DNA from: a virus
DNA: 29,208 bases
Reading direction: 5' to 3' (one strand)
IMG/VR virus record: IMGVR_UViG_3300018416_000080
Coordinates: 1 to 29,208 of that record
Shown here: positions 808 through 25,402 of the stretch, piece after piece
Layout of the letters: each line of letters opens with the position of its first letter
Numbering within the stretch: position 1 is the stretch's first letter
Program-made: the position numbers and the translations under genes
Notes under the pieces: model-generated
Told to the model about the DNA's origin: nothing
The model's input: only the letters and a program-made list of their open reading frames with translations
The model's database searches: none

Positions 808-1148
808 GAGATATGACATATAAAAATAAAATCACAACACTTAGTTATTTCATTAAAAGATTAAGAGATTCTGGCTTTGTAACAATAAAACTTTTCAAGG
901 ATTATGGAATCCTTGATCCCAGAAAGTGGACCGTCATGGTAGATCCGGGTGGTGGTTCTGTGATAATCACTTGCTATGAAAATAAGGAGGATAAGGGTGA
1001 TGTTGTCTTTGAATTCAATGACGGGGGTAATAAATTCCTTAAAACGTTCAACCTCAAAACCAAATCCATGGAAGTCATCATAACCAATTTAATAGAACGA
1101 GGTATATCACAAAAAACAGATGATTGCTCTTTTGAGAAGAAAGAGTAA
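804..1148 (+). CDS. Unknown 114-residue protein between clamp and primase
   Basis: The ATG at 804 overlaps the clamp stop codon (ATGA), so translation is probably coupled. The protein has a helical N-terminus (TTLSYFIKRLRDSGFVTIKLF), then a beta-rich middle with WTVMVDPGGGSVIITCY and VVFEFNDGGNKF. The layout suggests a small mixed alpha/beta protein of the replication cluster. I do not recognise the family. Its TAA stop forms the first half of the TAAATA box in front of the next gene. Confidence 0.75.
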   Translation: MRDMTYKNKITTLSYFIKRLRDSGFVTIKLFKDYGILDPRKWTVMVDPGGGSVIITCYENKEDKGDVVFEFNDGGNKFLKTFNLKTKSMEVIITNLIERGISQKTDDCSFEKKE

Positions 1149-1151
1149 ATA
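1146..1151 (+). promoter_or_regulatory. TAAATA late-promoter-like box, 5 bases before ATG
   Basis: TAAATA lies 5 bases (TTTGT) before the ATG at 1157. Its first three bases are the stop codon of the preceding gene. By T4 late-promoter geometry transcription would start on the A of the ATG. Confidence 0.5.
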
Positions 1152-1156
1152 TTTGT

Positions 1157-1450
1157 ATGGACAATGAGGAAATCCCTGACGACTTCACCGAAGAAGAAAT
1201 TACAAATATTCTTAGGGATGCATTGACCACAAGATTAAAAGAAAAAAGAAAAATACCGAACAAGGTTCAGATAAATAAAGCGATGATCTCAACTTTGGGA
1301 GAGTTTCTGACTTGTTTCAAATTGATTGGTTATGATTTGGATGGGAATCCTGTGAATTTTACTGTTTACAAAGAGAAAATAGAAAAATCAGCGTTGGATA
1401 ATCTTTTCATGGAGCAGGTTCAAAATTTCATGAATGATAGATTGGGATGA
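1157..1450 (+). CDS. Unknown 97-residue acidic helical protein
   Basis: The protein is short and mostly helical. It has an acidic N-terminus (MDNEEIPDDFTEEEITNILRDAL), a basic stretch (RLKEKRKIPNKVQINKA), and a central GYDLDGNPVNF turn. No Shine-Dalgarno sequence precedes the start; instead a TAAATA box sits 5 bases upstream. It overlaps the next gene by 4 bases (ATGA at 1447). Its place between clamp and primase suggests a replication or regulatory accessory, but I do not recognise it. Confidence 0.72.
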   Translation: MDNEEIPDDFTEEEITNILRDALTTRLKEKRKIPNKVQINKAMISTLGEFLTCFKLIGYDLDGNPVNFTVYKEKIEKSALDNLFMEQVQNFMNDRLG

Positions 1451-1734
1451 TTAAATTTTCAAAAAAATCTGTAGAGTTCGGAAATACTTATGGTGTTCTT
1501 GATGGACAATATAAGGGACATACTCTAATGTTTATAAAAAAGATCGGGGATCTTTATGGTTTTTGTGATATTTTTGACGGGAAGATGGATGCGAGATGGA
1601 TCTCAAAAAAGGACTTTGATTTCGGAGTTAAACATGGTATAATCGAATTGGTAAATCCACAACCATCGAAAGCTGAAAAAAATGAAATTGAAAAAATTAC
1701 CAAAGCTAAATTCAACAAACAAAAGGAGCTTTGA
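1447..1734 (+). CDS. Unknown 95-residue beta-rich protein upstream of primase
   Basis: It starts in an ATGA overlap with the preceding gene. Short strands separated by glycine turns (GNTYGVLDGQYKGHTLMFIKKIGDLYGF is one long such region, residues 12-39) suggest a small beta-barrel of SH3 or KOW type, followed by a charged Lys/Glu tail. That fold guess is inference. Its last 53 bases overlap the start of the primase gene in another frame. Confidence 0.7.
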   Translation: MIKFSKKSVEFGNTYGVLDGQYKGHTLMFIKKIGDLYGFCDIFDGKMDARWISKKDFDFGVKHGIIELVNPQPSKAEKNEIEKITKAKFNKQKEL

Positions 1735-2764
1735 TTTCGACTTACCGAGAGATTATGTAATTTCGAAATTTTATGAATTTGGTCATAGAGTAACCCACAA
1801 CAAATCCACAGGAAAATACAACTCATGTTGCCCAATTTGTAGAGAAGGCACGTCTTGGGGGAGAAAAAAAAGATGTTGGTATGATCCGGATGGTAGTAAT
1901 ATATGCTGCTATAATTGTGGAAGTAGTCTATCCACATATAACTGGATAAGAGAAGTGTCGGGGATGTCGCATAAGGAATTGTGCGATGATATGGGTAAGG
2001 GAGACTTCGGATATACTCCAATTTTATTGGAAGAAGATGCTCCACAATTGAAGGTTGAAACGTTACCTATCGATTCTATAAATTTATTTGACCCAACACA
2101 AGTCAAATATTATGAAAACAATTCGAAGGTAAAATACGCCTTGGATTATATAAAGAGACGCAGGCTGGACGTTGCTGTTAATCGCCCTCATGCCCTCTAC
2201 ATCAGCTTGAAGGACAAGTTTCAGGGTGATCGCTTAGTGATACCTTTCAAGGACGAGGAGGGGGATATTGTGTTCTACCAAACCCGCACTCTATTCAACA
2301 CAGACGAAAGGCCCAGTTATCTATCCAAGGTGAATTCTGATAAGACATTATACGGAATCGATAATATAGATCCCAATTTAGACACTGTGTTTTTATTCGA
2401 GGGTCCGATAGATTCGTTCTTTATAAAAAACGGATTGGGTGTGGCAGGGATTAACGCTGCCAAAGAGTTTACATTGACAAAAACACAGAAGAGTCAAATG
2501 GATTCTTTGGGACTGTTTAATAAGATATGGTTTTTAGATTCTCAATGGGTTGATAAAACAGCCAGAGAGAAAACGTTAAGCCTGTTGGAGTCTGGTGAAT
2601 GTGTATTCATATGGCCAGAAAAATGGGGAAAGTATTACAAGGATCTCAATGAGCTTTGTGTGGATAAGGATCTCAATCAGGTGTCTCCCGAATGGGCAAA
2701 GAAAAACAGCACCTGTGGTAAGGGTGCTGTTTTAAAGTTTAAGATGTTGTTTGCGAATCTCTGA
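1682..2764 (+). CDS. 61: DNA primase (T4 gp61-like, zinc finger plus TOPRIM)
   Basis: This 360-residue protein has the architecture of a phage primase that makes RNA primers for lagging-strand synthesis with the replicative helicase. Residues 49-79 carry the zinc-binding domain, with C50-x2-C53 and C76-x2-C79 as likely ligands plus C65 and C75. Residues 183-204 (GDRLVIPF...VFYQTRTL) match the basal part of the catalytic domain. The TOPRIM domain follows, with FLFEGPIDS (E240, D244) and a second acidic site at KIWFLDSQ (D286). T4 gp61 has 342 residues, so the length fits. The start overlaps the upstream gene by 53 bases; no better ATG lies between it and the conserved N-terminal region. The 3' end carries a symmetric terminator hairpin. 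Confidence 0.88.
   Translation: MKLKKLPKLNSTNKRSFDFDLPRDYVISKFYEFGHRVTHNKSTGKYNSCCPICREGTSWGRKKRCWYDPDGSNICCYNCGSSLSTYNWIREVSGMSHKELCDDMGKGDFGYTPILLEEDAPQLKVETLPIDSINLFDPTQVKYYENNSKVKYALDYIKRRRLDVAVNRPHALYISLKDKFQGDRLVIPFKDEEGDIVFYQTRTLFNTDERPSYLSKVNSDKTLYGIDNIDPNLDTVFLFEGPIDSFFIKNGLGVAGINAAKEFTLTKTQKSQMDSLGLFNKIWFLDSQWVDKTAREKTLSLLESGECVFIWPEKWGKYYKDLNELCVDKDLNQVSPEWAKKNSTCGKGAVLKFKMLFANL
2702..2733. terminator. Bidirectional intrinsic terminator inside the primase 3' end
   Basis: AAACAGCACC (2704-2713) and GGTGCTGTTT (2723-2732) form a perfect 10-bp stem around a 9-base loop. The stem is flanked by an A run on the left and a T run on the right, so it reads as a rho-independent terminator on both strands. 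It lies at the junction of two convergent genes, but about 30 bases inside the primase coding region, which must encode the stem as amino acids. Confidence 0.75.
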
Positions 2765-2772
2765 TTCCAATT

Positions 2773-3216
2773 TCAAACATATTTATATCTAGCATTTGAT
2801 GTCTGTGCCATGAATCCTAAGAAGTTCTGATGTAGAGATGCTAAATCTGAAGCAACGCGACTGATTTTTGTTTGTTGCGATTGTTTCATTTTATCCATCA
2901 CAGTGTCCGGTTCAGCAGCAGCAAGACGTGATTGAATGGAATTAGGATCTTCACTGTTAAGAAATGATAAAAATGATTCAATTTCTGTAATCCAAGATTG
3001 TAGTTCATCGATTGTTTGTTGATTTTTTTGTGACATTGCATCTGCAACTTGTTTCGATGTCTTATCAACCACGGTATTGGTATCCGGGGTGAGATCAACG
3101 CCGAAGTCTTCTGGATCGGTTCCATCATCCAAAGATGCTTCCATGGCTTTTCTTTCCAAATCGCGGGTGTCCTCGCGTAAGAGTCTTATAAATTCCTTGG
3201 CAAATAGGTTGCTCAT
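2773..3216 (-). CDS. Unknown 147-residue helical protein, possible virion/scaffold component
   Basis: The protein is acidic and helical. Its N-terminus (MSNLFAKEFIRLLREDTRDLE) resembles the short amphipathic leaders of T4 internal head proteins, followed by an acidic linker (DDGTDPEDFGVDLTPDTN), then Gln/Ser-rich helices. It stands alone on the minus strand, converging with primase and diverging from the gene at 3251. A TAAATA box lies 6 bases before its ATG, as for the virion genes, which suggests late expression. A scaffold or internal head role is only an inference. Confidence 0.75.
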   Translation of the reverse strand: MSNLFAKEFIRLLREDTRDLERKAMEASLDDGTDPEDFGVDLTPDTNTVVDKTSKQVADAMSQKNQQTIDELQSWITEIESFLSFLNSEDPNSIQSRLAAAEPDTVMDKMKQSQQTKISRVASDLASLHQNFLGFMAQTSNARYKYV

Positions 3217-3222
3217 ATAGTA

Positions 3223-3228
3223 TATTTA
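3223..3228 (-). promoter_or_regulatory. TAAATA late-promoter-like box, 6 bases before ATG
   Basis: On the minus strand CTAAATA is followed by TACTAT and the ATG at 3216. It is one half of a back-to-back pair with the box at 3240-3245. Confidence 0.55.
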
Positions 3229-3239
3229 GCTATTCGGGT

Positions 3240-3245
3240 TAAATA
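3240..3245 (+). promoter_or_regulatory. TAAATA late-promoter-like box, 5 bases before ATG
   Basis: TAAATA is followed by ATTCT and the ATG at 3251. Only 11 bases separate it from the opposing box at 3223-3228, so two polymerases could hardly occupy both at once. Confidence 0.55.
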
Positions 3246-3250
3246 ATTCT

Positions 3251-3646
3251 ATGCCAGCTAAAGGAGAAAGCCCCTATTCGACCAAATTCGCGTCCCCAGA
3301 TATCGACCACGATTTAGATCCATCCTCACAAATGAAGAAGTATAAAAAAGAGGAGAGGGAGACCCATGCTGGTCCAAATGCATTACCATATGAAATGCAA
3401 AATCTTCCAACCTATTTTGGTCAGATGGTGGATTCTGGTATGCAGGCAGCGAAAACAATAGAAGATATCCTAAAAACCAAAGACGTTAAGAATAAGAAGG
3501 AACTCCTCAAGCTTAAAAAGAACACAGAGAAGATGGTATTGTATCTTATGCAGAACGTTGACTATGTTTTAGAGAAATATACCATCGGAGCGAAGCATGT
3601 GATGGATGACATCGAGGATGAAAAGATGGAAGACGAGCTATATTGA
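3251..3646 (+). CDS. Unknown 131-residue charged protein
   Basis: The N-terminal third is polar and probably disordered (MPAKGESPYSTKFASPDIDH). It is followed by a Lys-rich helical region (residues 75-100, ILKTKDVKNKKELLKLKKNT) and an acidic tail ending MEDELY. It has no Shine-Dalgarno sequence but a TAAATA box 5 bases upstream, so it is probably expressed late. It could be a minor virion or assembly protein. I do not recognise the family. Confidence 0.75.
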   Translation: MPAKGESPYSTKFASPDIDHDLDPSSQMKKYKKEERETHAGPNALPYEMQNLPTYFGQMVDSGMQAAKTIEDILKTKDVKNKKELLKLKKNTEKMVLYLMQNVDYVLEKYTIGAKHVMDDIEDEKMEDELY

Positions 3647-3684
3647 GCTTGATTTCTCCATTCTGGGGGTATATAATACATGAG

Positions 3685-4158
3685 ATGACTACAATTTGGA
3701 AAAAAAGAGCGATTCTTTTGGGTGTTTGGGTATTTTTGATCATATTGCTCACAATTATCGGATATTTCGCAATTGCACCTTGGTTTTTGGTAATTTTCCC
3801 CATATTGCTTTGCATACCAGCAGGTATATTCACATTTTTGTTCTTAAAGGATTCAAATCCAGAGGAGGATGAAGAAATCCAGAAGCTTTTGACCACTATT
3901 TTTGATCTTGAGACCATTAATGAAGAACAAACAAGGGTTATCAAGGATTATGAGGATATCTTTGATACCCAATTGGTGGAATTGCCATGTGTTTGCGGTG
4001 GAAATACCTTTAAGGGGCTATTTTCTCCAAATACCGAGAACGAAGTTCAGTGTGAAAAATGTAAAAATAACTATCGAGTGACAATAAATTACGACACTGT
4101 TCTACTTTCAGAACCCATGGACCAAAAAATAATTGATAAAACACTTGGAGACATTTAA
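3685..4158 (+). CDS. Membrane-anchored zinc-ribbon-like protein
   Basis: From the ATG at 3685 the product has 157 residues. Two hydrophobic segments (about 8-28 and 32-53) form a membrane hairpin preceded by basic residues (WKKR), so the bulk probably faces the cytoplasm. An acidic helical stretch (59-92) leads to a likely zinc ribbon, with C102 and C104 (PCVCGG) paired with C123 and C126 (CEKC). The reading frame also extends upstream to a TTG at 3643 that overlaps the previous stop; I prefer the ATG because the TTG start would add a short unconserved-looking stretch. Function is unknown; a membrane-associated host-interaction factor is possible. Confidence 0.75.
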   Translation: MTTIWKKRAILLGVWVFLIILLTIIGYFAIAPWFLVIFPILLCIPAGIFTFLFLKDSNPEEDEEIQKLLTTIFDLETINEEQTRVIKDYEDIFDTQLVELPCVCGGNTFKGLFSPNTENEVQCEKCKNNYRVTINYDTVLLSEPMDQKIIDKTLGDI

Positions 4159-4163
4159 GTTGT

Positions 4164-4452: not shown

Positions 4453-4641
4453 ATGTCTAAAAAGAAAAACAAGAAATTCGAACAATGGAACAATTGTTGT
4501 AAAAACGAACAATTAGTCTCTTGGGATTGTTTTTGTAGTTGGGGGTGCGATTGCTGCGATTTATCTTGGGAATGCCCGACATGTGGTTGGAAATATACGG
4601 ATAATCAAATCAAATCATGGATTAAAATGATTAAACACTAA
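4453..4641 (+). CDS. Cys/Trp-rich miniprotein
   Basis: From the ATG at 4453 the product has 62 residues with nine cysteines and six tryptophans (CCKNE, CFCSWGCDCC, ECPTCGW). The frame extends upstream to 4414 inside the previous gene, but the ATG at 4453 leaves a one-base gap after that gene's stop and is the natural start. The Cys pairs suggest one or two bound metals. It is the third Cys-pair protein in a row. I do not recognise it. Confidence 0.65.
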   Translation: MSKKKNKKFEQWNNCCKNEQLVSWDCFCSWGCDCCDLSWECPTCGWKYTDNQIKSWIKMIKH

Positions 4642-4659
4642 GATAAACTGATACAAATT

Positions 4660-5710: not shown

Positions 5711-6115
5711 TCAGAAATTTAAATAAAGGCAAGCATCATCACATTTTTTGTTCACAACTGTTGGGGTTGGAGTAGTTGTGGTTGTGGTTCTTGGTGGAGA
5801 TGTAGTTGTAGTTGTAGTTGTGGGTGCCTGTGTGGTGAGTATTGTCTCAATTTTCGTTAATGGAGAACTCGGAGGTGGCACCTTAGTTGTCACCACAACA
5901 ATCGCAGACGGGGGCAGCGTGTTGGGTGGTGGGATTATTATGATCGGAGGGTTTGGAGGGGTTGTGTCTGGTGGTGGAAGACACGGTGAGCATGTTGTGG
6001 AACCGTCCGGTGGCGTAGTGGTGGATGTGGTGCTTGTGGATGTAGTAGTCGATGTACTAGTAGATGTGCTACTAGTACTAGTATAAGTAGGAAAAGATGT
6101 TGTCCCTTCAATCAT
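5711..6115 (-). CDS. Mucin-like Thr/Ser/Pro-rich protein
   Basis: Of 134 residues about one third are Thr, with many Ser and Pro. The order is an N-terminal Ser/Thr block, a CSPC motif, a Pro-rich centre containing IIIIPPP and VVVTTKVPPP, a second block of T7 and T6 runs, and a C-terminal CDDAC. Such stalks are extended, unstructured and classic O-glycosylation substrates. The gene sits between a lectin-like protein and a glycosyltransferase in the fibre cassette, so a virion surface stalk or decoration is likely. The DNA is a set of short ACN repeats that should be prone to length change by slippage. The opposite strand is also open, but only as a Val/Gly-rich mirror of the repeats. Confidence 0.8.
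   Translation of the reverse strand: MIEGTTSFPTYTSTSSTSTSTSTTTSTSTTSTTTPPDGSTTCSPCLPPPDTTPPNPPIIIIPPPNTLPPSAIVVVTTKVPPPSSPLTKIETILTTQAPTTTTTTTSPPRTTTTTTPTPTVVNKKCDDACLYLNF
5795..6090. repeat. Imperfect trinucleotide/hexanucleotide repeats in the mucin-like gene
   Basis: The plus strand reads runs of GTTGTA and GTGGTT near 5795-5820, GTGGATGT units near 6020-6050, and an ACTAGT-rich segment near 6055-6082. They encode the Thr/Ser blocks on the minus strand. Variation in copy number between related genomes is expected. Confidence 0.6.
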
Positions 6116-9050: not shown

Positions 9051-9896
9051 TTAGTATCCGTAAGCTTCAACTGAAATATCCCATTTGATTGGTAAATATG
9101 ACGCATTATTATCAATTATATCATCTTTAAGATAAACCAGTGGAGTCCCTGTTCCATCTTGGTTCAAATCACCTATTGCTACATTACATTGCACACCGAT
9201 CCTTGTTCCGTCTTTGGGATAATAAACACATCTATGCCCATAGGGATCGTATAATTTAGAACCATTATCTAATATTGGATTTCTCGAAGCTCTGATCCTA
9301 ACGGCACGAGCAGGGTTAGCATCTTCAATTGGTTCTAAAAATAATATTGCTGACTTTGCACCAATTGGAACCAATGGATCACCATTCAAATTATTTAACA
9401 ATGATAGCGGTAGCCAATCTTCAGTTATTTCCTTTCCGGAAGCAACTTTAGTAGCAGGGTTGTTTACCAGTTGAGTTTTTGTTATCAATTTTGGATCGTT
9501 AATATAATCAATTTCTTTGATCTTAGTGACAAGACCTTTAGAATTTACATCAATGTAGTCGATAGATTTGTAGCGATCAGCGGGGTTTGGACTCAAATCA
9601 GAAAGATATGATCCAGAAAGAGACGTGGTGTAACCCAATGATCCGCTTGTTTCTTGTATGACGATAGAACCCACAGAACCAGTTGTAGAAGGATATCCTT
9701 GCGTTCCAACCTTTAAATTAGATGCCGATAATTGACCAGATACAGTCGCACCATTCCCATTACGACCTATGGATAGGGATGACGTATTACCCAATCCATC
9801 ATAGACGGGAGTTTTTCCAGATGATGGTATCTCTCCCTCTGAGTGAAGAATGCCTGTGTATGAATCGGCTATTAACTTGCCCTGAAATGTACTCAT
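9051..9896 (-). CDS. Tail fibre/virion protein
   Basis: The 281-residue protein opens with MSTFQGKLIADSYTGILHSEGE, then TPVYDGLGNTSSLSIG and LSASNLKVGTQGYPSTTGSVGS. This Gly/Ser/Thr arrangement is typical of phage fibre shafts with repeated image-frame-like beta segments. The C-terminal half (PIGAKSAILFLEPIEDANPARAVRIRAS) looks globular and ends in Tyr. It has a TAAATA box exactly 5 bases before its ATG and leads the small operon that includes the next gene. Confidence 0.82.
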   Translation of the reverse strand: MSTFQGKLIADSYTGILHSEGEIPSSGKTPVYDGLGNTSSLSIGRNGNGATVSGQLSASNLKVGTQGYPSTTGSVGSIVIQETSGSLGYTTSLSGSYLSDLSPNPADRYKSIDYIDVNSKGLVTKIKEIDYINDPKLITKTQLVNNPATKVASGKEITEDWLPLSLLNNLNGDPLVPIGAKSAILFLEPIEDANPARAVRIRASRNPILDNGSKLYDPYGHRCVYYPKDGTRIGVQCNVAIGDLNQDGTGTPLVYLKDDIIDNNASYLPIKWDISVEAYGY

Positions 9897-9901: not shown

Positions 9902-9907
9902 TATTTA
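9902..9907 (-). promoter_or_regulatory. TAAATA late-promoter-like box, 5 bases before ATG
   Basis: GGGTAAATA is followed by TTGTT and the ATG at 9896 on the minus strand. Confidence 0.55.
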
Positions 9908-13997: not shown

Positions 13998-14003
13998 TAT
14001 TTA
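13998..14003 (-). promoter_or_regulatory. TAAATA late-promoter-like box, 6 bases before the GTG
   Basis: TTAAATAAATAAT precedes the GTG start at 13991. The TAA of the box (14003-14001) is the stop codon of the upstream gene. Confidence 0.5.
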
Positions 14004-14495
14004 ATCGGAAAGCTCCACCACATATTTTCCAATATGGGTAATGAATTGATATTCGGAAGAATTTGCAGATATTGGTAATATGTTGCAGTTATAGGTTTTT
14101 AAATCGTAAATGGATTCAAAATAATCATATGATCTAATTGCTATAGGTATAATAAACCATCCAACATCACCGTTTGAATAATTTACTGAAATTTGCGCGG
14201 TTAAATTTTTGTAAAGTGCAGTAGATGAGGGGAAATAGTCCTTTTCATAAATTTTGGTCAAGAGTGGACTAACACGGAATATATTCACCTGATCTCTACT
14301 ATTCACGAATATATCATTATCATATAATTCGCTATTACCATCACCCCAATCAACCTTTAAATTGATCGGTATAATTTTTTCACTTAAATTGCTGATATCT
14401 ATACGTAGTTTCGTATAATCTTCAAAATTAAGAACATCAACGATGTGTGTATAGTCTGGTTTCGGAGAAGATAGTGTGAGTGTATAGCTATTCAT
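14001..14495 (-). CDS. Small PKD-like virion protein
   Basis: The 164-residue protein is beta-rich and contains LKVDWGDGNSELYDN (about residues 46-60), the DWGDG-type turn of PKD/Ig-like domains. It starts within the stop codon of the large gene upstream (ATGA) and is translated with it. It may cap or connect the large protein. It shares its PKD signature with the gene beginning at 27198. Confidence 0.72.
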   Translation of the reverse strand: MNSYTLTLSSPKPDYTHIVDVLNFEDYTKLRIDISNLSEKIIPINLKVDWGDGNSELYDNDIFVNSRDQVNIFRVSPLLTKIYEKDYFPSSTALYKNLTAQISVNYSNGDVGWFIIPIAIRSYDYFESIYDLKTYNCNILPISANSSEYQFITHIGKYVVELSD

Positions 14496-17176: not shown

Positions 17177-17182
17177 TATTTA
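17177..17182 (-). promoter_or_regulatory. TAAATA late-promoter-like box, 6 bases before ATG
   Basis: AAGTAAATA is followed by ATAGCA and the ATG at 17170 on the minus strand. Confidence 0.55.
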
Positions 17183-17183: not shown

Positions 17184-17543
17184 TTACGGGACGTAAGGTT
17201 GATCAGTGACAGTAATTTTTCCGTTCTTATCTATTGTAAATGCATTTGTAGGATATTTTAAATCGACGGAAACATTGTCAATCTGGGCAACTTTAGTTAT
17301 AAATTCTGTCAATGCCCCATGAAATTGAAAAATTTTTATTGCATCTGTTCCAAGACTGTCCACAATTTCTTGAGGATCAAATTTTCGATCATTCCATACC
17401 AAATCAATCCCATCTTTTTGAATTTTAACTAATTCGGAAAATGATCTTGAAGAAAAAATATTAATTTTTTTCTTAATATTTTCAAGTAATTGTTCTTTTG
17501 TTGGGGGGGATGTTGTAGGTTTGGTTATTTCTAAAATACTCAT
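17184..17543 (-). CDS. Unknown 119-residue protein, probably virion-associated
   Basis: The protein has an N-terminal Thr/Pro stretch (ITKPTTSPPTKEQ), then helices containing IFSSRSFSELVKIQKDGIDL and VDSLGTDAIKIFQFHGALTE, and a short beta end (AFTIDKNGKITVTDQPYVP). Its place between the solenoid fibre and the 892-residue protein, with its own TAAATA box, suggests a late virion or fibre-assembly role. The helical core and beta C-terminus could form an oligomeric adaptor. Confidence 0.75.
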   Translation of the reverse strand: MSILEITKPTTSPPTKEQLLENIKKKINIFSSRSFSELVKIQKDGIDLVWNDRKFDPQEIVDSLGTDAIKIFQFHGALTEFITKVAQIDNVSVDLKYPTNAFTIDKNGKITVTDQPYVP

Positions 17544-17548: not shown

Positions 17549-17554
17549 TATTTA
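17549..17554 (-). promoter_or_regulatory. TAAATA late-promoter-like box, 5 bases before ATG
   Basis: TTAAATA is followed by AACAC and the ATG at 17543 on the minus strand. Confidence 0.55.
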
Positions 17555-17561: not shown

Positions 17562-19211
17562 TTATGCCAATAGCGGAATGGTGTAGTAGACACCATTGAT
17601 CATTATTTTCAATCCGGATAGTGATGATGTGAGTGATTTACCGGGAACCACGCTGAGAGGAACTGTGGTAGAACCGATTGCGATGGTATTTTGAGCCGAT
17701 GGGGTAGCACCATAACCCAAAGCAATGCATCCACTAAGAGATGGTGTTGATGGTGATGACGTGTTGGTGTTGTGACCGACGAATGTATTCAGATTAGATT
17801 GTATTCCTGTCCCAGAATTACTACCAATAAAAATGGAATTTGATGTAGTCGCACTTTGAGCGGCTGTACTACCAATAGCTATAACATTTGAAGATGCGGC
17901 ACCACTACTAAAATTGGAGGCTGCACTAGACCCGATAACTATGATATCTGATATAGAACCATTAATACCAGCTTCTTCACATGCATAATCACCAATGGAT
18001 ATTATACTAGTCCCTAATCCACCATTTGAACATAAACTAAATCCTGAATTAGTTCCTATAGTTATTATATTGGACACGGTTCCACTTCCTGTTCCTACAC
18101 CAGAACCCGAATTAGACCCCAAAGCAACTACATTATTGACATTTGCGAAATTATTAATACCAGAACCACTATACGGTCCTATAAATACACAGTCAGCTAT
18201 GGTGCTTACACCGATGGTTCCTAAATTAATACCAGCACCGTAACCTATACCAACAACAGATTCGATAATCGAATCAACTCCATTCGATACGTCAGACCCG
18301 GCTGAATGACCAATAAATACAACCTCCGATACAGTAGAATCTCCATAACTACCCAGAGAATTACCAGCTTCTCTACCAATTAATACAGCGTTGTTTAAAG
18401 TTCCTATAGAGTTTGATGCCGCTATATTCTGGCCAGCCATATTACCGATAGAAATAACGTCTTGAAAATTAAGACCGGGTAATGTTAATTCGGCATTATT
18501 ATTTGCCGAATAACCGATAGATATGACGTTGGACGCATTTGTCATCCACTCATTTGCCCTTTCACCAATCGCTATTACTTGTTCCGCTGTTCCACCTTGT
18601 CCCCCGACCCAAGTTCCAGCATATTTCCCAATAGTGATTACACTATTGGCTAACCCATTGCTCCCGGCCACCGAATTTCCAGAAAATTCTCCTATAGAAA
18701 TAAGGTCGTTTACATATCCACCATAACTACCAGCTTCTGCCGCCGAATATGCACCGAGAGCAACGATGTTAGTAAAATTTCCATTACTATCTCCTATATA
18801 ATTCCCAACGTATTTACCAATTAACACCGCAGTATCACTGGTGTTGGGAGGTGTGAGAGAATATGCGCCAGCACCTCTACCAAAAGCAATAATATCAGTT
18901 CCGATAAAGTTGTTATGATCAATAATTCCAAATGATCCTGTCCCTTCTCCACGTTTTAAAGAATATGATAATGGGTCCGTTCCACCAGATAAGTTAATGT
19001 ATGTGCATGTAAGTGAACCCTGTATAGTTTGACCCGACGTAAAATTATTATTCGCGTTTTTAACTGCAAAATTTGACGAATCTGGTGAAGTATAGGTCTT
19101 AATATCACTTAACTCGGCGGTCACAGTTGAACCGTTTTGGTTCATAACGACCAATTCTCTACCCGATAATGGTTTTGTAGCAGAATTAAATTCAGAAATC
19201 TTTTTAGACAT
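17562..19211 (-). CDS. Tail fibre with about 20 YadA-like IG repeats (beta-solenoid)
   Basis: The 549-residue protein begins with a common fibre leader (KISEFNSATKPLSGRELVVM, then VTAELSDIKTY). From about residue 100 to 520 it consists of about 20 copies of a 16-24-residue unit whose core is two hydrophobics, x, IG/LG, then a small-residue pair, for example VISIGYSAN, VIAIGERAN, AVLIGREAG and VVFIGHSAG. This is the pattern of YadA-type trimeric adhesin heads, which form left-handed beta-rolls. The end (LSGLKIMINGVYYTIPLLA) is the hydrophobic tip typical of phage fibres. It would be a long trimeric receptor-binding fibre. A TAAATA box lies 5 bases before the ATG. Confidence 0.88.
   Translation of the reverse strand: MSKKISEFNSATKPLSGRELVVMNQNGSTVTAELSDIKTYTSPDSSNFAVKNANNNFTSGQTIQGSLTCTYINLSGGTDPLSYSLKRGEGTGSFGIIDHNNFIGTDIIAFGRGAGAYSLTPPNTSDTAVLIGKYVGNYIGDSNGNFTNIVALGAYSAAEAGSYGGYVNDLISIGEFSGNSVAGSNGLANSVITIGKYAGTWVGGQGGTAEQVIAIGERANEWMTNASNVISIGYSANNNAELTLPGLNFQDVISIGNMAGQNIAASNSIGTLNNAVLIGREAGNSLGSYGDSTVSEVVFIGHSAGSDVSNGVDSIIESVVGIGYGAGINLGTIGVSTIADCVFIGPYSGSGINNFANVNNVVALGSNSGSGVGTGSGTVSNIITIGTNSGFSLCSNGGLGTSIISIGDYACEEAGINGSISDIIVIGSSAASNFSSGAASSNVIAIGSTAAQSATTSNSIFIGSNSGTGIQSNLNTFVGHNTNTSSPSTPSLSGCIALGYGATPSAQNTIAIGSTTVPLSVVPGKSLTSSLSGLKIMINGVYYTIPLLA
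17600..18900 (-). repeat. Array of degenerate ~48-72-base coding repeats for the solenoid
   Basis: The array encodes the IG-repeat unit about 20 times, with GGTNNTAA-type motifs diverged at the DNA level but preserved at the protein level. This implies ancient duplication with selection on fold, not recent expansion. Confidence 0.7.
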
Positions 19212-19216: not shown

Positions 19217-19222
19217 TATTTA
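19217..19222 (-). promoter_or_regulatory. TAAATA late-promoter-like box, 5 bases before ATG
   Basis: AACTAAATA is followed by GTTTC and the ATG at 19211 on the minus strand. It faces away from the box at 19245-19250. Confidence 0.55.
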
Positions 19223-19244: not shown

Positions 19245-19250
19245 TAAATA
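19245..19250 (+). promoter_or_regulatory. TAAATA late-promoter-like box, 7 bases before ATG
   Basis: GAATAAATA is followed by GGTTCAA and the ATG at 19258. It is the second half of a divergent pair. Confidence 0.45.
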
Positions 19251-19257: not shown

Positions 19258-19470
19258 ATGAGTAAAAAATTACTTAAAAAATTGACAGATAAAGAGGAAA
19301 AGTTGATGGACATCATTTATGAGATTCAAGAAATTTTAGATTCTGTGGAAGATGCTGAATTGAGTTCAATGGGTGACATATTTGTGGAGACGACGCTTGA
19401 TTTCTTGACAGAGAATGATACAATGACTCTAAATGAGATTAAAAGATACATTAGCGAAGAACTCGAATGA
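19258..19470 (+). CDS. Unknown 70-residue acidic helical protein
   Basis: This is a short, highly helical, acidic protein (LTDKEEKLMDIIYEIQEILD, then a C-terminal helix) that leads the sugar-nucleotide/clamp-loader operon. The next gene begins inside it, 38 bases before its stop. It could be a small regulator or adaptor. No family is recognised. Confidence 0.65.
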   Translation: MSKKLLKKLTDKEEKLMDIIYEIQEILDSVEDAELSSMGDIFVETTLDFLTENDTMTLNEIKRYISEELE

Positions 19471-20353
19471 TAATCACCATATCCTAATCCTAGGTAAGGG
19501 TTATTTGGGAGGAGAAATAGAGAAATATCTCAAAAAATTACACTACACAGTATCAAATTTGAGTAGATCCGAACTGAATTATGGTAATCAGACGGATCTA
19601 TGGAAATTTATACTCAATAATAGTGTTGATTGTGTGATTAATTGCTCGGGCTTCACCGGGAGACCTAATGTTGACGAAGCTGAGTTCAAAAAAGAACTTT
19701 GCTGGGAATTGAATGTAACAATTCCCCAACAAATAGCGAAAACTTGCCATAATTTGGGTGTGAAATGTATCCATATTAGTAGCGGTTGTATTTACAGTGG
19801 GTATCATAAGAATTTTACAGAGGAGGATGTTCCAAATTTTGGATTATTTGATGATAGTAGCTTCTATAGCAAGAGCAAACATGCATTTGAGACAGTTACC
19901 AGAGATCTAAATGTCAAAATTCTTAGAATTCGTATGCCCATTTGTTATGATATCACATACCCAAGAAATTATCTGACAAAAATCATGAATTATCCAAATC
20001 TCATCGATATGCTCAACTCCAAAACATTTTTACCGGATTTGAATGGATTTTTGGATACAATTCTGAAAAATATGACATCCTCTTGGTGGAATCAAAAGCA
20101 AGACATATACAATATTGTGAATCCTGAACCATTGACTACATTTGATGTTATTAAAATGTTAAATTGGGGAAATGAGGGAAGGTGGAAAGATTTGGAACCC
20201 AATTGGATTACAATGAGTGAACTAGACACATTAGCTCCTAGGAGTAACTGTGTATTAGACAATACAAAGGCATCTAAAATATATAAGTTTAATACTGAAA
20301 CAGAATTTATGTGGATGATTATGGACAATATTAATGTAAACGCGGCAGTATGA
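19433..20353 (+). CDS. Nucleotide-rhamnose epimerase-reductase (NRS/ER-like SDR)
   Basis: The 306-residue extended short-chain dehydrogenase has GKGYLGG at 21-27 (NAD(P)-binding glycine motif) and YSKSK at 145-149 (YxxxK catalytic pair). Around these it carries the marks of the plant and mimivirus 4-keto-6-deoxyglucose 3,5-epimerase/4-reductase family: GFTGRPNVDEAE at 73-84, SSGCIYSG at 116-123, RIRMPI at 165-170 and PRNYLTKI at 177-184. That family converts UDP- or dTDP-4-keto-6-deoxyglucose to L-rhamnose in one protein, replacing bacterial RmlC and RmlD. It overlaps both neighbours and lies beside an RmlA homologue. A general NDP-sugar reductase remains the alternative. The first ten residues are uncertain because the ATG lies within the upstream gene. 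Confidence 0.85.
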   Translation: MRLKDTLAKNSNDNHHILILGKGYLGGEIEKYLKKLHYTVSNLSRSELNYGNQTDLWKFILNNSVDCVINCSGFTGRPNVDEAEFKKELCWELNVTIPQQIAKTCHNLGVKCIHISSGCIYSGYHKNFTEEDVPNFGLFDDSSFYSKSKHAFETVTRDLNVKILRIRMPICYDITYPRNYLTKIMNYPNLIDMLNSKTFLPDLNGFLDTILKNMTSSWWNQKQDIYNIVNPEPLTTFDVIKMLNWGNEGRWKDLEPNWITMSELDTLAPRSNCVLDNTKASKIYKFNTETEFMWMIMDNINVNAAV

Positions 20354-21099
20354 CAGCAGACCATATGAGAGGGATTATTTTGGCTGGGGGGAGGGGAAGT
20401 AGGTTATTCCCTCTTACGCTTGGTGTGAGTAAACAACTCATGCCTGTATATAAACAACCGATGATTTACTATCCTTTGAAGACTTTAATAGATATGGGTA
20501 TTAAAGACATTCTAATCATCGTTGCATCTGAATTACAAAGAACTTTATTTTATGAATATATAGGAAATGGATCGAGATTTGGAATAAAGATAGAATATAT
20601 CGTGCAGGAGAAGCCAAATGGTCTAGCCGAGGCTTTTATTTTAGGAGAAAATTTTATTGATAATAAGAATGTGACTCTAATTTTAGGAGATAATGTATTT
20701 TTAAATAATACACCAATAGAGGCTGAACCAAATTCGATATTTACGTATAAAGTTAAAGATCCTTCTGCTTATGGGGTGGTTTCTGTTGATGAATTTGGAT
20801 ATATCTCTAAAATTGTAGAGAAACCTTTTAGTTACATTAGTGATAATGCTGTCGTTGGGTTATATGTCTTCTCCAATATAGCGGTTGAATTATCGAAAAA
20901 ACTAATCCCCTCACATAGGGGTGAGTTAGAGATAGTGGATCTCATAAAAGCTATTGATTATGAGGAGGGTGTCCATGTTAAAAGCATCGATGGGGTGTGG
21001 TTTGATTGCGGAACACACGATGACCTATTAGAATGTGCCGAATACGTCCGCGCCCTTGACAAAAGAACAAAACGTGATATCTTTCTTAAACAATTATGA
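20350..21099 (+). CDS. rmlA: Glucose-1-phosphate thymidylyltransferase (RmlA-like)
   Basis: The enzyme joins glucose-1-phosphate to dTTP to give dTDP-glucose, the first step of dTDP-rhamnose synthesis. Family motifs are all present: GGRGSRLFPLT at 13-23, SKQLMPVYKQPMIYYPL after it, EKPNGLAEAF near 87-96, LGDN at 112-115, YGVV at 141-144, EKP near 157, RGELEI at 190-195 and WFDCGTHDDLLE at 217-228. At 249 residues it is of the short class without the C-terminal extension of bacterial RmlA (about 290). The ATG at 20350 forms an ATGA overlap with the preceding gene; a second ATG at 20365 immediately before the catalytic loop is possible. It overlaps the clamp loader gene in the same way. Confidence 0.93.
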   Translation: MTADHMRGIILAGGRGSRLFPLTLGVSKQLMPVYKQPMIYYPLKTLIDMGIKDILIIVASELQRTLFYEYIGNGSRFGIKIEYIVQEKPNGLAEAFILGENFIDNKNVTLILGDNVFLNNTPIEAEPNSIFTYKVKDPSAYGVVSVDEFGYISKIVEKPFSYISDNAVVGLYVFSNIAVELSKKLIPSHRGELEIVDLIKAIDYEEGVHVKSIDGVWFDCGTHDDLLECAEYVRALDKRTKRDIFLKQL

Positions 21100-22013
21100 G
21101 TATAAAATCGCTTTGGGTTGAAGCATATCGCCCACTTACCTTAGAAGATTTATCCATCCCAGACCAAACAAAGGAGATTATTCGCAGCTTCGGAGAAGAT
21201 ATACCGAATATATTACTATGCTCCGGGGCAGGGCAAGGAAAAACTACTTTAGCGAGGATTATTGTTTTAGACATATTAAAATGCGATTATCTATACATAA
21301 ACGCATCGGATGAAAATGGTATTGATACTGTTCGTGGCAAAATTTCGGGATTCGTACAAACTAAAAGTTTCGATGGTAAGATCAAGGTAGTTATTTTAGA
21401 CGAAATTGATAATTTTAGTAAGAATGGACAAGACGCATTGAGGAATATGATGGAATCGTATGCTGACAATGCTAGATTCATACTGACTGGCAACTATAAA
21501 CACAAGATATCCACCCCCTTACAATCAAGGTGTCAGGAATTGATTGTGAAACCTTCATTGCAACAGGCGTTGAGAAGATGTTTGGAGATATTGAAAACTG
21601 AAAATATCCAAGTCGACCTACAACAAAAGAAAAAATTGGCGAACTTGGTGAAGATGCATTACCCCGATTTGAGGAAGTGTATTAACGAAATGCAGAAATT
21701 CGTAATTGAGGGAGTATTACAGATACCGGATAAATTGAATACTGATGATATATGTGAGAAAATACAAAAACACATAGAATCCGGTGAAACTTTTGAGTTG
21801 AGAAAGTTTTTAATACAAAACGAAATTCTATTTGATGGAGACTGGGATCAATTGTTAGTGAATCTATTAAATTACTTGTATGGTCAAGAGATGAACGATT
21901 CAAAGAAAAAGGCAATGATTTTAACCATTGCCGATCATCTTGAAAAGTCTAGTAGGGTCACTGACAAAGAGATTAACTTCTTCGCGTGCGTCTTAAATCT
22001 GGAGCAAATTTAA
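21096..22013 (+). CDS. 44: Clamp loader AAA+ ATPase (T4 gp44/RFC-like)
   Basis: The 305-residue subunit opens and places the sliding clamp on primed DNA. It has the RFC N-terminal box (WVEAYRP), Walker A GAGQGKTT at 44-51, Walker B VVILDEID at 98-105, sensor-1 region FILTGNY near 128-134 and the SRC motif (QSRC) at 143-146, whose Arg acts on the neighbouring subunit's ATP. The C-terminal helical part is the oligomerisation domain. It starts in an ATGA overlap with rmlA, so a replication gene is translated with sugar-nucleotide genes. No gp62-like small subunit gene is visible in the window. The 3' end converges with the gene at 22010. Confidence 0.94.
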   Translation: MSIKSLWVEAYRPLTLEDLSIPDQTKEIIRSFGEDIPNILLCSGAGQGKTTLARIIVLDILKCDYLYINASDENGIDTVRGKISGFVQTKSFDGKIKVVILDEIDNFSKNGQDALRNMMESYADNARFILTGNYKHKISTPLQSRCQELIVKPSLQQALRRCLEILKTENIQVDLQQKKKLANLVKMHYPDLRKCINEMQKFVIEGVLQIPDKLNTDDICEKIQKHIESGETFELRKFLIQNEILFDGDWDQLLVNLLNYLYGQEMNDSKKKAMILTIADHLEKSSRVTDKEINFFACVLNLEQI

Positions 22014-22020
22014 GACTGCA
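21987..22020. terminator. Palindromic hairpin spanning both convergent stop codons
   Basis: GTCTTAAAT (21990-21998) and ATTTAAGAC (22008-22016) form a perfect 9-bp stem around a 9-base loop, extended by TGC/GCA with one bulged base. The right arm contains the stop codons of both converging genes. It lacks a clear U run, so it may act as a weak bidirectional terminator or as a 3'-end stabiliser. Confidence 0.55.
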
Positions 22021-22642
22021 TCCCCTGTTTAAACGCATCCTTCGCACCGCCAGTAAATCCCTTATCGATTGCTGCTTGTGCGAAATCCCCTGTGCTTTGT
22101 TTAACTGCATCAAGAGTATCAATAATGTCACTCAAAGACATATCGGTGACATTACCTTGAATGTTGCCCAGCAACCCAGATTCTTGAGCTTGGGTAATTA
22201 AATCTATCAATTGTTGTGTGGATGTTTTGGCTTGAACGAGTGCGTCTTGTGATTTTTTATCAGCAACACCTGTCTGATACATATCAGATACATTCGACCC
22301 GATTTGTTTGGCCCCTGCGACTAAGCCAGAGCCTACTTGTTTAGCTCCCTGAACAGCTTGACCGATCTTGCCACCAACAGCCTGCTTGACTCCCTGTGCC
22401 GCATTGGCAGCACTTTGCTTAATACCTTTACCAACCCCACTGACCCCGGCTTTAAGATTTCCAAAGAAGCCCTCTACAATTCTATCTGAAACTGTTGAGA
22501 CATAATCTAGTTCCGCTTCACACATTAAATCCAAGTTGGCATGCACCTGATTCAATGTCATTGAAGGGATGGATTCCTTTAGAAGCTGTAGAGTATATGC
22601 TTCTGTTAACATTATTTGATCTCTTTGAGAATAACTAGGCAT
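22010..22642 (-). CDS. Gly/Ala/Lys-rich probable virion protein
   Basis: The 210-residue protein opens with a helical leader containing LTEAYTLQLLKE and a Glu-rich helix. Residues about 64-118 are a glycine-, alanine- and lysine-rich repeat region (KGIKQSAANAAQGVKQAVGG, then VQGAKQVGSGLVAGAKQIGS) of likely amphipathic helices. The C-terminal part is helical and Gln/Ser-rich. The LTE/A sequence matches the LxE-type site cut by T4 prohead protease, so an internal capsid protein is possible; this is inference. A TAAATA box lies 5 bases before its ATG, the TAA being the stop codon of the gene at 22651. Confidence 0.75.
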   Translation of the reverse strand: MPSYSQRDQIMLTEAYTLQLLKESIPSMTLNQVHANLDLMCEAELDYVSTVSDRIVEGFFGNLKAGVSGVGKGIKQSAANAAQGVKQAVGGKIGQAVQGAKQVGSGLVAGAKQIGSNVSDMYQTGVADKKSQDALVQAKTSTQQLIDLITQAQESGLLGNIQGNVTDMSLSDIIDTLDAVKQSTGDFAQAAIDKGFTGGAKDAFKQGMQS

Positions 22643-22647
22643 AGTAT

Positions 22648-22653
22648 TATTTA
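22648..22653 (-). promoter_or_regulatory. TAAATA late-promoter-like box, 5 bases before ATG
   Basis: AACTAAATA is followed by ATACT and the ATG at 22642 on the minus strand. Its first three bases are the stop codon of the preceding gene. Confidence 0.55.
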
Positions 22654-23214
22654 GTTAGGATTGGATGAATACATTTCTTCTAAAAGATCCCCGAGTTTTT
22701 CTATATCTTTTGATTCCCCAGCAAGCTTCAAATTTGTTGGTGTATTCCTTTTGTTTCCTTTATCGGTCAGTCTAGTGATGTGTTTCATATCATCGACATA
22801 TTTTTCGGTCTTCCCATTTAGATATTTTTCATCATCTCTATAAAATTGATCTGGGACGGTCGGGTTTGGATTGTTTGTATCAACCACATCAATCATATCA
22901 GGTTTTACCGCAATTGAACCATAATGTCTCCCACCACCTTGATCGGCAGCGACAGTAATGACAACATTATCAGCAGTCTTGTGTTGATTTCCGGCAGATG
23001 CACCAGATAATTTATCACCAACCTGAATAACCTTAATATTCAGTCCAGATTTGACCAATTCATCCAATTCCTTTTTCATGGTCGAATGCATTGATTTATA
23101 ACAATCGCAAGATTTGTAATCTGGACGAAATTTCACGATATCTCCCGGAAGATACCCCCCGATCTGATAACGAGAGACAACCGATTCATAAATCTCATCA
23201 AATTTAATACCCAT
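22651..23214 (-). CDS. Unknown 187-residue protein, probable virion or assembly role
   Basis: The frame is open to 23451, but the upstream part lies across a plus-strand gene and is not credible. The two candidate ATGs are 23220 and 23214. I chose 23214 because it has the TAAATA box at the standard 5 bases, while for 23220 the box would run into the ATG. The protein begins MGIKFDEIYESVVSRYQIGG, then LPGDIVKFRPDYKSCDCYKS, a compact beta/helix region with GDKLSGASAGNQ and VVITVAADQGGGRHYG, and a helical end. The start resembles the leader of the coiled-coil gene on the other side of the divergent junction (KFEKLVEVI). No family recognised. Confidence 0.7.
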   Translation of the reverse strand: MGIKFDEIYESVVSRYQIGGYLPGDIVKFRPDYKSCDCYKSMHSTMKKELDELVKSGLNIKVIQVGDKLSGASAGNQHKTADNVVITVAADQGGGRHYGSIAVKPDMIDVVDTNNPNPTVPDQFYRDDEKYLNGKTEKYVDDMKHITRLTDKGNKRNTPTNLKLAGESKDIEKLGDLLEEMYSSNPN

Positions 23215-23219
23215 ACTCA

Positions 23220-23225
23220 TATTTA
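23220..23225 (-). promoter_or_regulatory. TAAATA late-promoter-like box, 5 bases before ATG 23214
   Basis: GGTTAAATA on the minus strand is followed by TGAGT and the ATG at 23214. With TTAAATAT on the other strand (23237-23244) it forms an 8-bp inverted repeat, 12 bases separating the boxes. Confidence 0.55.
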
Positions 23226-23237
23226 ACCGTTTATCAT

Positions 23238-23243
23238 TAAATA
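23238..23243 (+). promoter_or_regulatory. TAAATA late-promoter-like box, 5 bases before ATG
   Basis: ATTAAATA is followed by TTGAT and the ATG at 23249. It is the plus-strand half of a back-to-back pair. Confidence 0.55.
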
Positions 23244-23248
23244 TTGAT

Positions 23249-24880
23249 ATGAAGTTTGAAAAATTGGTAGAAGTTATCACCGAAGCTGGATTTAGACCAT
23301 CTGCCCCAAAGAATATGGGTGGAAATAGATTGAGTAGAGCCAAGGAATCGGAAGGACCAGCGGGATATGTCTCAGGTCCAGTTGGAAAATCTGATAATTT
23401 TGAAGTTCGAACACCTTTAAATAGGTGGGAATATGACCCAACCCAAAACACTGGGAAATCTGGATTCTCAGCCGAGTCAAAATTGTGGAAAAGTATGTTG
23501 ACATCTTTTCGATTACTGTTTAATGACCCTTATTTTGACAAACAGGCACAAAAAATTATCAAAAGATTCAATGATTCTAGAGATTCTTATAAAAACATTA
23601 AAGGAATCGATGAAGATGGTAAGGTTGAAAAGTATGATGAGGAGAATCAATTAGAAAAACTCGAAAGAAATCAATCCAAGTATCGAAGTGATTTGACTGG
23701 TATGAGAGATGATCTAGATAAAAAGAATAAGATCATCAATAGAACAAAATTACCACCATCTGAAAAGAATAAAATGGAAACAGACATAGCTATGATGGAG
23801 GCAAAGGTTGCTAAATTAAATGAGCAAATGAAAAGAGAGTCTGTTGAAAAAAGAAAACAGCTTTTTAGACAAAAAATTGATGAATTGGTCGTCCTTTTAG
23901 ATAAGAAAAGGATGAGATTCGACCAAGCCACCATGAAACCCGCTGATATAGAGAAATTGAAGGCTAATGTCTTTGATATTGAGGAGAAAATGGGTAAGTG
24001 GGAAGAGAAATTAGAAAAAACCACCGAAGAATTGGAAGAATTATACGATAGAATCAACCAAATTAATCAAAACAACGAAGACGCGAACGAAACTGCGATT
24101 TCAGGATTATTGGATCTGGTAAAATATACTGCATCTTCTCTAATTAAAGAATATCAGTCGAAATCAGGGAATCAGCAATTAAAATCATTAGATCAATTAA
24201 ATTGGGAGGACTCACCAAGCAATTTATCTGATGCGATTGAGCGTTTAAAGGCTTTAGAATCTACCGATCAAAACATAAATCCGATGCTTGGATATATCGA
24301 AAGGTTTAAAAGAGACTACGAAGGAAAGGAATTCGCCGCTGGAAGAGAATTGGACAAAAATGTGAACATTACTAGCATAAGAGACTTCAATAAATTACCA
24401 TTTATGATAATTTCTAGAATATATAGTTCTTTACGTGCATCGGACAAACATCCCATAGCATTAAACAAATTAAACACCACTCAAAATGATATAGGAAAGT
24501 CTGATTTGGTCTCTATGTTAGATAAACTCTCACAAAATAGTGTAGAAAATAAGGCAGAGTGGGAGAATGCAAATACCAAAACATATATTAAAGGATTGAT
24601 AGATCAATTGGGCATCACTCCATTCACTAAAGAACAGATGAAGAAGCGTGTAGATCGACCTTGGATGCTCGATAGGGGGAAAACACCACCAGCATTTCTA
24701 AAAATGAACATAGAAGACGAAACAAAGGTCAAAACAGAATCATTTGACGATTATTACACCAAAATATTGGTAGAATCGATATACGATGAGGATGATTATA
24801 AGACAGATATTATCGAAATTTTGGAAAAATGTAATGGATTGAGCAAAAAGTCAGTGGCGAATGTGAGGGGAAGCGTGTAA
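23249..24880 (+). CDS. Long coiled-coil protein upstream of gp25, probable virion/assembly protein
   Basis: The 543-residue protein has a leader (MKFEKLVEVITEAGFRPSAP) resembling capsid-targeting peptides of T4 internal proteins (MKTYQEFIAEA), with VITE/A as a possible prohead-protease site. A Gly/Pro-rich linker follows, then Lys/Glu-rich coiled coil from about 128 to 282. The C-terminal half is helical, and near residue 497 a phrase similar to the leader recurs (SFDDYYTKILVESIYDEDD). The gene sits directly upstream of the gp25-gp6 baseplate pair with a late box. Scaffold, internal head or tail-length protein are the options; the sequence does not decide. Confidence 0.78.
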   Translation: MKFEKLVEVITEAGFRPSAPKNMGGNRLSRAKESEGPAGYVSGPVGKSDNFEVRTPLNRWEYDPTQNTGKSGFSAESKLWKSMLTSFRLLFNDPYFDKQAQKIIKRFNDSRDSYKNIKGIDEDGKVEKYDEENQLEKLERNQSKYRSDLTGMRDDLDKKNKIINRTKLPPSEKNKMETDIAMMEAKVAKLNEQMKRESVEKRKQLFRQKIDELVVLLDKKRMRFDQATMKPADIEKLKANVFDIEEKMGKWEEKLEKTTEELEELYDRINQINQNNEDANETAISGLLDLVKYTASSLIKEYQSKSGNQQLKSLDQLNWEDSPSNLSDAIERLKALESTDQNINPMLGYIERFKRDYEGKEFAAGRELDKNVNITSIRDFNKLPFMIISRIYSSLRASDKHPIALNKLNTTQNDIGKSDLVSMLDKLSQNSVENKAEWENANTKTYIKGLIDQLGITPFTKEQMKKRVDRPWMLDRGKTPPAFLKMNIEDETKVKTESFDDYYTKILVESIYDEDDYKTDIIEILEKCNGLSKKSVANVRGSV

Positions 24881-24893
24881 GGACTGGTAATTG

Positions 24894-25379
24894 ATGAGTA
24901 TCAAAATAAATTCATTAAAAATAGATAGAATTTCAGAAAAAACTCTGAAAGACGATTATCTATATAAGGATCTGGCATTAGATTTAAGATCAGACGTGTC
25001 TTATAATAATCAATTGAATAAACAGGAGAATTTGAGAGATTTGGCGGCTATATATGATGTTGAGTCGGTCAAAAACAGTATATCGACAGCGTTCTTAACA
25101 TCTCCGGGGGATAAAATATTAAATCCAACGTATGGGGTAGATTTGAGACAGTATATATTCGAACCCATCGATGATTTCACCAGTGATATTATAAAAGATG
25201 ATATAGAAACTAAGCTACCCTTAATGGAACCAAGAGTGACAGTGAAAAACGTTCAAGTTACCCCAGATGAGGACAATAATCAATATGATATATCTTTCGA
25301 GATCGATGTACCGTCTTTAGATATAAAGGGGTTGTCCATAAAATCTCAGCTGAATAGCACTGGTTATACTGTTATATGA
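24894..25379 (+). CDS. 25: Baseplate wedge subunit (T4 gp25-like)
   Basis: The 161-residue protein belongs to the GPW/gp25 family, which joins the wedge to the sheath-initiating ring and the tail tube region. Residues 68-91 carry the family signature LTSPGDKILNPTYGVDLRQY followed by IFEP, and the C-terminus has VKNVQVTPDEDNNQYDISFE, the expected strand. T4 gp25 is 132 residues; here an N-terminal extension of about 25 residues contains DYLYKDLALDL. The frame also opens at a TTG (24891), but the ATG at 24894 is preferred; AAGGA at 24879-24883 could serve as a ribosome-binding site. The gp6 homologue follows after 23 bases. Confidence 0.93.
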   Translation: MSIKINSLKIDRISEKTLKDDYLYKDLALDLRSDVSYNNQLNKQENLRDLAAIYDVESVKNSISTAFLTSPGDKILNPTYGVDLRQYIFEPIDDFTSDIIKDDIETKLPLMEPRVTVKNVQVTPDEDNNQYDISFEIDVPSLDIKGLSIKSQLNSTGYTVI

Positions 25380-25388
25380 TTATTGGAA

Positions 25389-25394
25389 TAAATA
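25389..25394 (+). promoter_or_regulatory. TAAATA late-promoter-like box, 8 bases before ATG
   Basis: GAATAAATA is followed by ATTGAATA and the ATG at 25403. The spacing is slightly longer than elsewhere. Confidence 0.4.
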
Positions 25395-25402
25395 ATTGAA
25401 TA

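Follow-up and report, generated by a model that had tools for sequence, protein, structure and literature searches.

Probable Late Promoter Boxes Locked to Start Codons Predict Leaderless Late mRNAs in an Uncultured Branch of T4-Like Phages

Introduction

T4-like late transcription is a textbook system with leadered mRNAs. The late box of T4 is 8 bp long, has its first base at -13 and thus covers -13 to -6, and is not accompanied by a -35 element (PMC2988020). The stretch of DNA analyzed here (the window; 29,208 nt) is a 29-kb virus fragment encoding homologues of gp6, gp25, gp44, and a primase, and it raises the question of whether late promoters can be placed so close to genes that transcription would begin at the start codon itself. 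An earlier note, made without database searches, had listed 13 TAAATA boxes at short, nearly constant distances from start codons, and had predicted leaderless late mRNAs, with a translation signal as the competing reading. We addressed this question by analyzing the spacing of the boxes, the genes behind them, and the bases at the predicted transcription start, both in the window and in its relatives.

Results and Discussion

Spacing of the TAAATA Boxes in the Window

All 13 boxes were present, each with the spacer that the earlier note had given (table 1). Among 33 curated window starts, a box was found at a spacer of five bases (N5) in eight and at N6 in three, against an expectation of 0.025 per spacing (Poisson P = 3.5e-18 for N5 and 1.1e-22 for N5 and N6 together). 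When gene calls were ignored and any ATG was accepted, 10 boxes were observed at N5 and 4 at N6, with 0–2 at each of the other spacings up to N30; in Markov-1 simulations of the window, which preserve dinucleotides and consequently over-produce the box, TAAATA-N5-ATG occurred 1.4 times on average and 7 times at most. The gp25 gene, which had been noted as an exception among the virion genes, indeed had no box in the window, yet it is boxed in some relatives. At three of the sites, the TAA of the box also terminated the upstream gene.

Table 1. Positions of late boxes and related features in the window
Feature	Positions	Strand	Remarks
Late box TAAATA	1146..1151	+	N5 to ATG 1157; box TAA is stop codon of upstream gene 804-1148
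Late box TAAATA	3223..3228	-	N6 to ATG at 3216
Late box TAAATA	3240..3245	+	N5 to ATG 3251; divergent with box 3223-3228
Late box TAAATA	9902..9907	-	N5 to ATG at 9896
Late box TAAATA	13998..14003	-	N6 to GTG at 13991; box TAA is stop codon of upstream gene 14001-14495
Late box TAAATA	17177..17182	-	N6 to ATG at 17170
Late box TAAATA	17549..17554	-	N5 to ATG at 17543
Late box TAAATA	19217..19222	-	N5 to ATG at 19211
Late box TAAATA	19245..19250	+	N7 to ATG 19258; divergent with box 19217-19222
Late box TAAATA	22648..22653	-	N5 to ATG at 22642; box TAA is stop codon of upstream gene 22651-23214
Late box TAAATA	23220..23225	-	N5 to ATG at 23214
Late box TAAATA	23238..23243	+	N5 to ATG 23249; divergent with box 23220-23225
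Late box TAAATA	25389..25394	+	N8 to ATG 25403 (gp6, baseplate wedge)
gp6 baseplate wedge gene	25403..27205	+	Box-headed; phrog_219
gp25 baseplate wedge gene	24894..25379	+	No box in the window
gp44 clamp loader gene	21096..22013	+	Replication gene without box; phrog_168
Early-type promoter element AAACACTA	4633..4649	+	-10-like TAAACT, 10 nt before ATG 4660; same type in G001 and G002

Conservation of the Spacing among Relatives

The same spacing prevailed among 157 loci of relatives from IMG/VR, in which gene starts were simple longest-ORF calls without protein data. Over all loci, the distance from TAAATA to the start codon was five bases in 347 cases, six in 224, and seven in 38, with no more than 25 at any other distance; after redundancy was removed, 197, 96, and 22 cases remained at N5, N6, and N7. 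In single records the pattern was equally clear, with 46 boxes at N5 and 20 at N6 versus about 6 at other spacings in G002, and 39 at N5 and 14 at N6 in G005. TAAATA-N5-ATG occurred 41–72 times per record of 150–236 kb versus 0–5 times in total for a reversed-pattern control, and TAAATA at N5 was a leading positional hexamer in seven long members (z 33–55). Thus, the spacing preference, which the earlier note had proposed to check against other spacings and controls, held genome-wide and clade-wide. No close isolate was found: the identity of gp44 to any phage record did not exceed about 38%, and the window gene at 23249 had no match among phage records.

Gene Classes behind the Box and the Late Sigma Factor

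The box was carried by 45 of 66 recognisable virion genes and by none of 50 replication and regulatory genes (gp43, gp44, gp46, gp47, gp55, gp32, and uvsW; Fisher P = 2.7e-16). Although TAAATA is invariant here by selection, the flanks and the -35 region showed no strong conservation, and the first two bases (TA) of the T4 box were not conserved. Of the 10 long records with boxes, 8 encoded a homologue of the T4 late sigma factor gp55 (E <= 1e-16), which the earlier note had proposed to seek elsewhere in the genome; the remaining two, of 117 and 139 kb, are shorter than most members and may be incomplete. This finding concerns the relatives, as only a 29-kb fragment of the window genome itself is available.

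A Start-Site Signal That Follows the Box

Relative to the ATG, the late box at N5 occupies -11 to -6. Because the T4 box covers -13 to -6, a spacer of five bases places the predicted +1 on the start codon. Bacterial RNA polymerases favour start sites at which a purine (+1) follows a pyrimidine (-1). Genes with an N5 box had a pyrimidine five bases after the box in 214 of 252 cases (background 63%, P = 3e-14), and N6 genes had a purine at the sixth base, directly before the ATG, in 72 of 115 (background 39%, P = 5e-7). In the N7 class, a pyrimidine stood at the fifth position in 21 of 30 genes (background 42%) and a purine at the sixth in 23 of 30 (background 57%), and the purine at the sixth position recurred in 11 of 13 N8 genes. 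No clear pyrimidine was observed at the fifth position in the N6 class, which suggests that its start sites are possibly mixed. The pyrimidine–purine step is thus tied to the box, and not to the start codon, when the spacer changes. Since the signal tracks the box, the predicted leader is absent at N5 and would be 0–1 nt at N6, 2 nt at N7, and 3 nt at N8; for N7–N10 boxes in general, we inferred leaders of 2–5 nt rather than none, in the absence of RNA 5'-end data. Start codons at N5 and N6 included no TTG and 48 GTG among 293, and the latter could serve only in a host able to initiate on leaderless GTG; 19% of the unboxed calls were TTG, many of them surely miscalled.

A Second Promoter Element in Putative Early Regions

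A positional motif search in unboxed genes exposed a second element, represented by TAATTAAAACCGAAnTATAAT in G005, ATAAAACACTAnnnTATAAT in G001 and G002, and TTAAAAACTAGAnTACAAT in G004, in which a lineage-specific sequence (AAAACCGAA, AAACACTA, or AAAAACTAGA) abuts a -10 hexamer. This hexamer occupies -12 to -7 and is one base farther from the ATG than the late box, the offset that sigma70 geometry demands for +1 to fall on the ATG. All 129 genes with the element at its main spacing started with ATG, 128 of them had a pyrimidine at -1, and none also bore a late box. They were clustered in regions largely separate from the late-box genes, and from this position and the absence of virion genes we inferred that they are early genes. 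In addition, G006 apparently uses another early motif (AACTGCCGATATATA) with real leaders, and therefore early leaderlessness is not universal. The scope of the earlier note, which had dealt only with late genes, was thus too narrow, as the early genes of several members share the design. The two promoter classes have different sequences and different geometries, yet each points to the start codon, and we regard this as the strongest argument that the position relative to +1, and not a translation motif, is conserved.

Two other candidates were rejected. In T4 middle promoters, the MotA box stands about 12 bp ahead of the -10 hexamer; this geometry was not shared by the early element, which stands directly against its hexamer. 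TTGACA-like peaks upstream of gp44 proved to be coding sequence of the upstream gene, and not promoters.

Translation Signals and the Unidentified Host

Shine-Dalgarno sequences preceded only 1.4% of boxed genes. In seven box-bearing genomes their frequency at unboxed starts was also close to that at a control position (0.061 vs. 0.066 in G002), and therefore their absence is not special to boxed genes; the earlier claim that they are largely missing before boxed genes held, but was too narrow, since they are absent clade-wide. Bacteria are known to translate mRNAs that begin with the AUG itself (PMC9031893), and leaderless (TA-led) genes of Actinobacteria and Deinococcus-Thermus have been identified by a -10-like signal about 10–12 bp ahead of the start codon (PMC3160421). 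Two marks of such genes, the position of the signal (late -11 to -6, early -12 to -7) and the missing Shine-Dalgarno sequence, were present here; the difference is that those are cellular sigma70-type promoters, whereas the present clade has a phage-specific late promoter and a separate early one. About half of the uncoupled starts had neither the late box nor the early element, indicating that other modes exist.

The host could not be deduced from these data. Scans of bacterial genomes revealed no gp6 relative, and the nucleotidyltransferase gave eight matches of 25–45% identity in Actinobacteria, candidate phyla, and others, which were uninformative on the host. WhiB, a mark of actinophages, was found in none of 10 records, and the Bacteroidota promoter (TTG-N17-23-TAnnTTTG) showed no consistent enrichment over a reversed control. 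T4-like and Far-T4-like environmental genomes have been linked to marine Bacteroidetes (PMC7198788), with no such host link for the present clade.

Comparison with Other T4-Like Phages

The late promoters of T4 (TATAAATA, served by the gp55/gp33/gp45 system) share with the present clade the core box, the lack of a -35 element, gp55, and the heading of virion genes on both strands; however, the clade lacks the conserved leading TA, and its box is fixed 5–6 nt before the start codon, compared with 12–46 nt in T4. We compared 49 kb each of T4, Syn9, P-SSM2, and Campylobacter PC5, in which boxes were mostly 12–48 nt upstream of starts, corresponding to leaders of ordinary length, with a single PC5 box at N5. 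Syn9, P-SSM2, and PC5 resemble the clade in having a TAAATA-type box ahead of virion genes, but in addition to the longer spacers they still partly possess Shine-Dalgarno sequences. The SAR11 T4-like Pelagibacter phage Mosig (L161, 49 kb) had four boxes at N5 and eleven farther off, so that only a minority of its boxed genes would be leaderless; it may represent a mixed or intermediate state. Among the cultured relatives of T4 that we examined, a box locked to the start codon is therefore almost never seen. Searches of open-access papers turned up no description of T4-like phages with leaderless late transcription, which is weak evidence of novelty. The middle and late transcripts of Thermus phage P23-45 are reported to be leaderless, with extended -10 promoters, but this is an unrelated siphovirus that uses the host sigmaA with gp39, and not a gp55 system.

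In a gp44 tree, the box-bearing loci grouped together with weak support (0.61), beside the box-less L153 and L156. Loci L153–L157, including G007 (the record of L154), form a sister T4-like lineage without boxes. Shine-Dalgarno sequences preceded 40% of starts in G007 versus 8% at the control position, gp55 had no match in this record, and a phage bS21 was encoded by it but was absent from box-bearing records. Membership in the Far-T4 phages, whose closest isolate is RM378 and whose capsid protein is about 15% longer than that of other T4 phages (PMC4360716), was not supported: gp17 of G002 and G005 scored higher with P-SSM2, HTVC008M, and T4 than with RM378, and gp23, of 489 aa, did not meet the criterion of a longer capsid protein.

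The Major Capsid Gene as an Exception

None of 73 gp23 (major capsid) genes was preceded by a late box. They had a conserved leader instead, of the form TTTCACCAAGAAC-ATGAGG-hairpin-CCTGAAC-AAATATAGAAAG (upstream regions L264–L330; e.g., the 100 bases before gp23 in L264). The 5-bp stem of the hairpin was paired in 99.1% of cells and showed 27 double changes, and its covariation was 0.632 versus 0.197 when shuffled. Nothing reached the gathering threshold of Rfam in four sources, and the gp23 leader had no Rfam match. This leader may be an RNA element that supports strong translation of the capsid gene or takes part in mRNA processing.

Proposed Mechanism and Alternative Explanations

We proposed that TAAATA forms the core of late promoters of the T4 type, which would be read by the phage gp55 together with the host RNA polymerase, and that its placement would cause transcription to begin at the start codon's first base (N5) or 1–3 bases ahead of it (N6–N8). 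Virion genes heading sub-operons would then be translated from mRNAs with no leader or almost none, and the genes behind them by coupling; in several members, the early genes would depend on the second promoter, with its lineage-specific element against the -10 hexamer, placed to the same effect. The positions, the enrichment, the gene classes, the presence of gp55, the pyrimidine–purine step, and the lack of Shine-Dalgarno sequences are observed directly, whereas the actual start sites, the binding of gp55 to the box, and translation from a 5'-terminal start codon are inferred. We consider this explanation very likely as a whole. The leaderless reading of the earlier note is thus supported, but without transcript 5' ends leaderlessness remains strongly inferred and not demonstrated.

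The alternative that survives best, although we consider it very unlikely, is that the box signals translation from within an mRNA leader, either as an A/U-rich site for the ribosome or S1 or as a Kozak-like context as in Flavobacterium, with transcription starting farther upstream. In its favor, the clade has no Shine-Dalgarno sequences, and initiation is tuned by upstream adenines in Flavobacterium johnsoniae (PMC6847099). However, the hexamer shifts as a unit from N5 to N8 and the pyrimidine–purine step shifts with it, the box is restricted to virion-type genes, the early genes give the same role to a different motif with a canonical -10 hexamer, and the box is identical to the core of the T4 late box. 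The translation-signal reading, which the earlier note had kept as its competitor, also fails to explain the presence of gp55.

Slightly less probable still is a late promoter with start sites that are scattered or lie inside the gene, the true start codon being downstream behind a normal leader. The called starts are indeed not proven by protein data, but conservation of gp6 extends to residue 7, which means that its start was not called much too far upstream, and the matches of gp44 relatives begin at residues 1–6, leaving no space for a leader; the lack of a Shine-Dalgarno signal and of TTG starts at N5 and N6 also argues against this view. It is likewise highly improbable that the box is an RNA processing site at which longer transcripts are cut. 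T4 5' ends from primer extension can be processing products (PMC2988020), but the identity of the box with the T4 late promoter, the encoded gp55, and the purine start signal oppose this explanation, and many boxes lie between divergent genes, where no upstream transcript of the same sense is expected. Although the window is rich in A and T (65%) and contains 44 TAAATA sites, chance or an artefact of gene calling is practically ruled out, since the excess persists when gene calls are dropped and every ATG is counted, and all long relatives show it as well.

Implications of Start-Codon-Locked Promoters

If the late-promoter explanation is correct, a large uncultured branch of T4-like phages has its late box, and often an early promoter, locked to the start codon, and the translation machinery, of the host or the phage, would have to be adapted to start codons at the 5' terminus. 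The box would give gene starts directly and would serve as a late-gene marker for metagenomes and as a clue to the unidentified host, and the clade offers a natural experiment on the joint evolution of promoters and translation signals. The prediction is testable to the single base. A bolder reading, toward which we lean only slightly, is that most of the program, early and late, depends on leaderless mRNAs: two unrelated promoter classes of different -10 geometry would each have been positioned to start transcription at the start codon, the Shine-Dalgarno sequences would have been lost, and a structured leader would be retained by only some genes, gp23 among them. Promoter position would then double as a translation signal.

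Additional Observations

Genes for tRNAs with the anticodon CTA, labeled tRNA-Pyl by ARAGORN, were observed in G002 (L181:13136-13210) and G005 (L191:16159-16232), and may be amber suppressors. TAG stops were rare (7 of 204 genes in G002 and 9 of 220 in G005); wholesale recoding of TAG was rejected, as open frames behind TAG stops were not in excess. The gp55 gene of G006 (L223:3528-5030) is a single 500-aa frame with an insert between the two gp55 halves, which matched Pfam Intein_splicing (E 7e-6) below the curated cut-off, and we tentatively read it as an intein in the late sigma factor. In the window, genes resembling a nucleotide-sugar epimerase (phrog_540) and a sugar-nucleotidyltransferase (19433-21099) are flanked by a small boxed gene and the gp44 gene. 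The protein encoded at 5711-6115 on the minus strand has a long Ser/Thr repeat near its N-terminus (TSTSSTSTSTSTTTSTSTTSTTTPP), possibly the flexible linker of a tail or surface protein.
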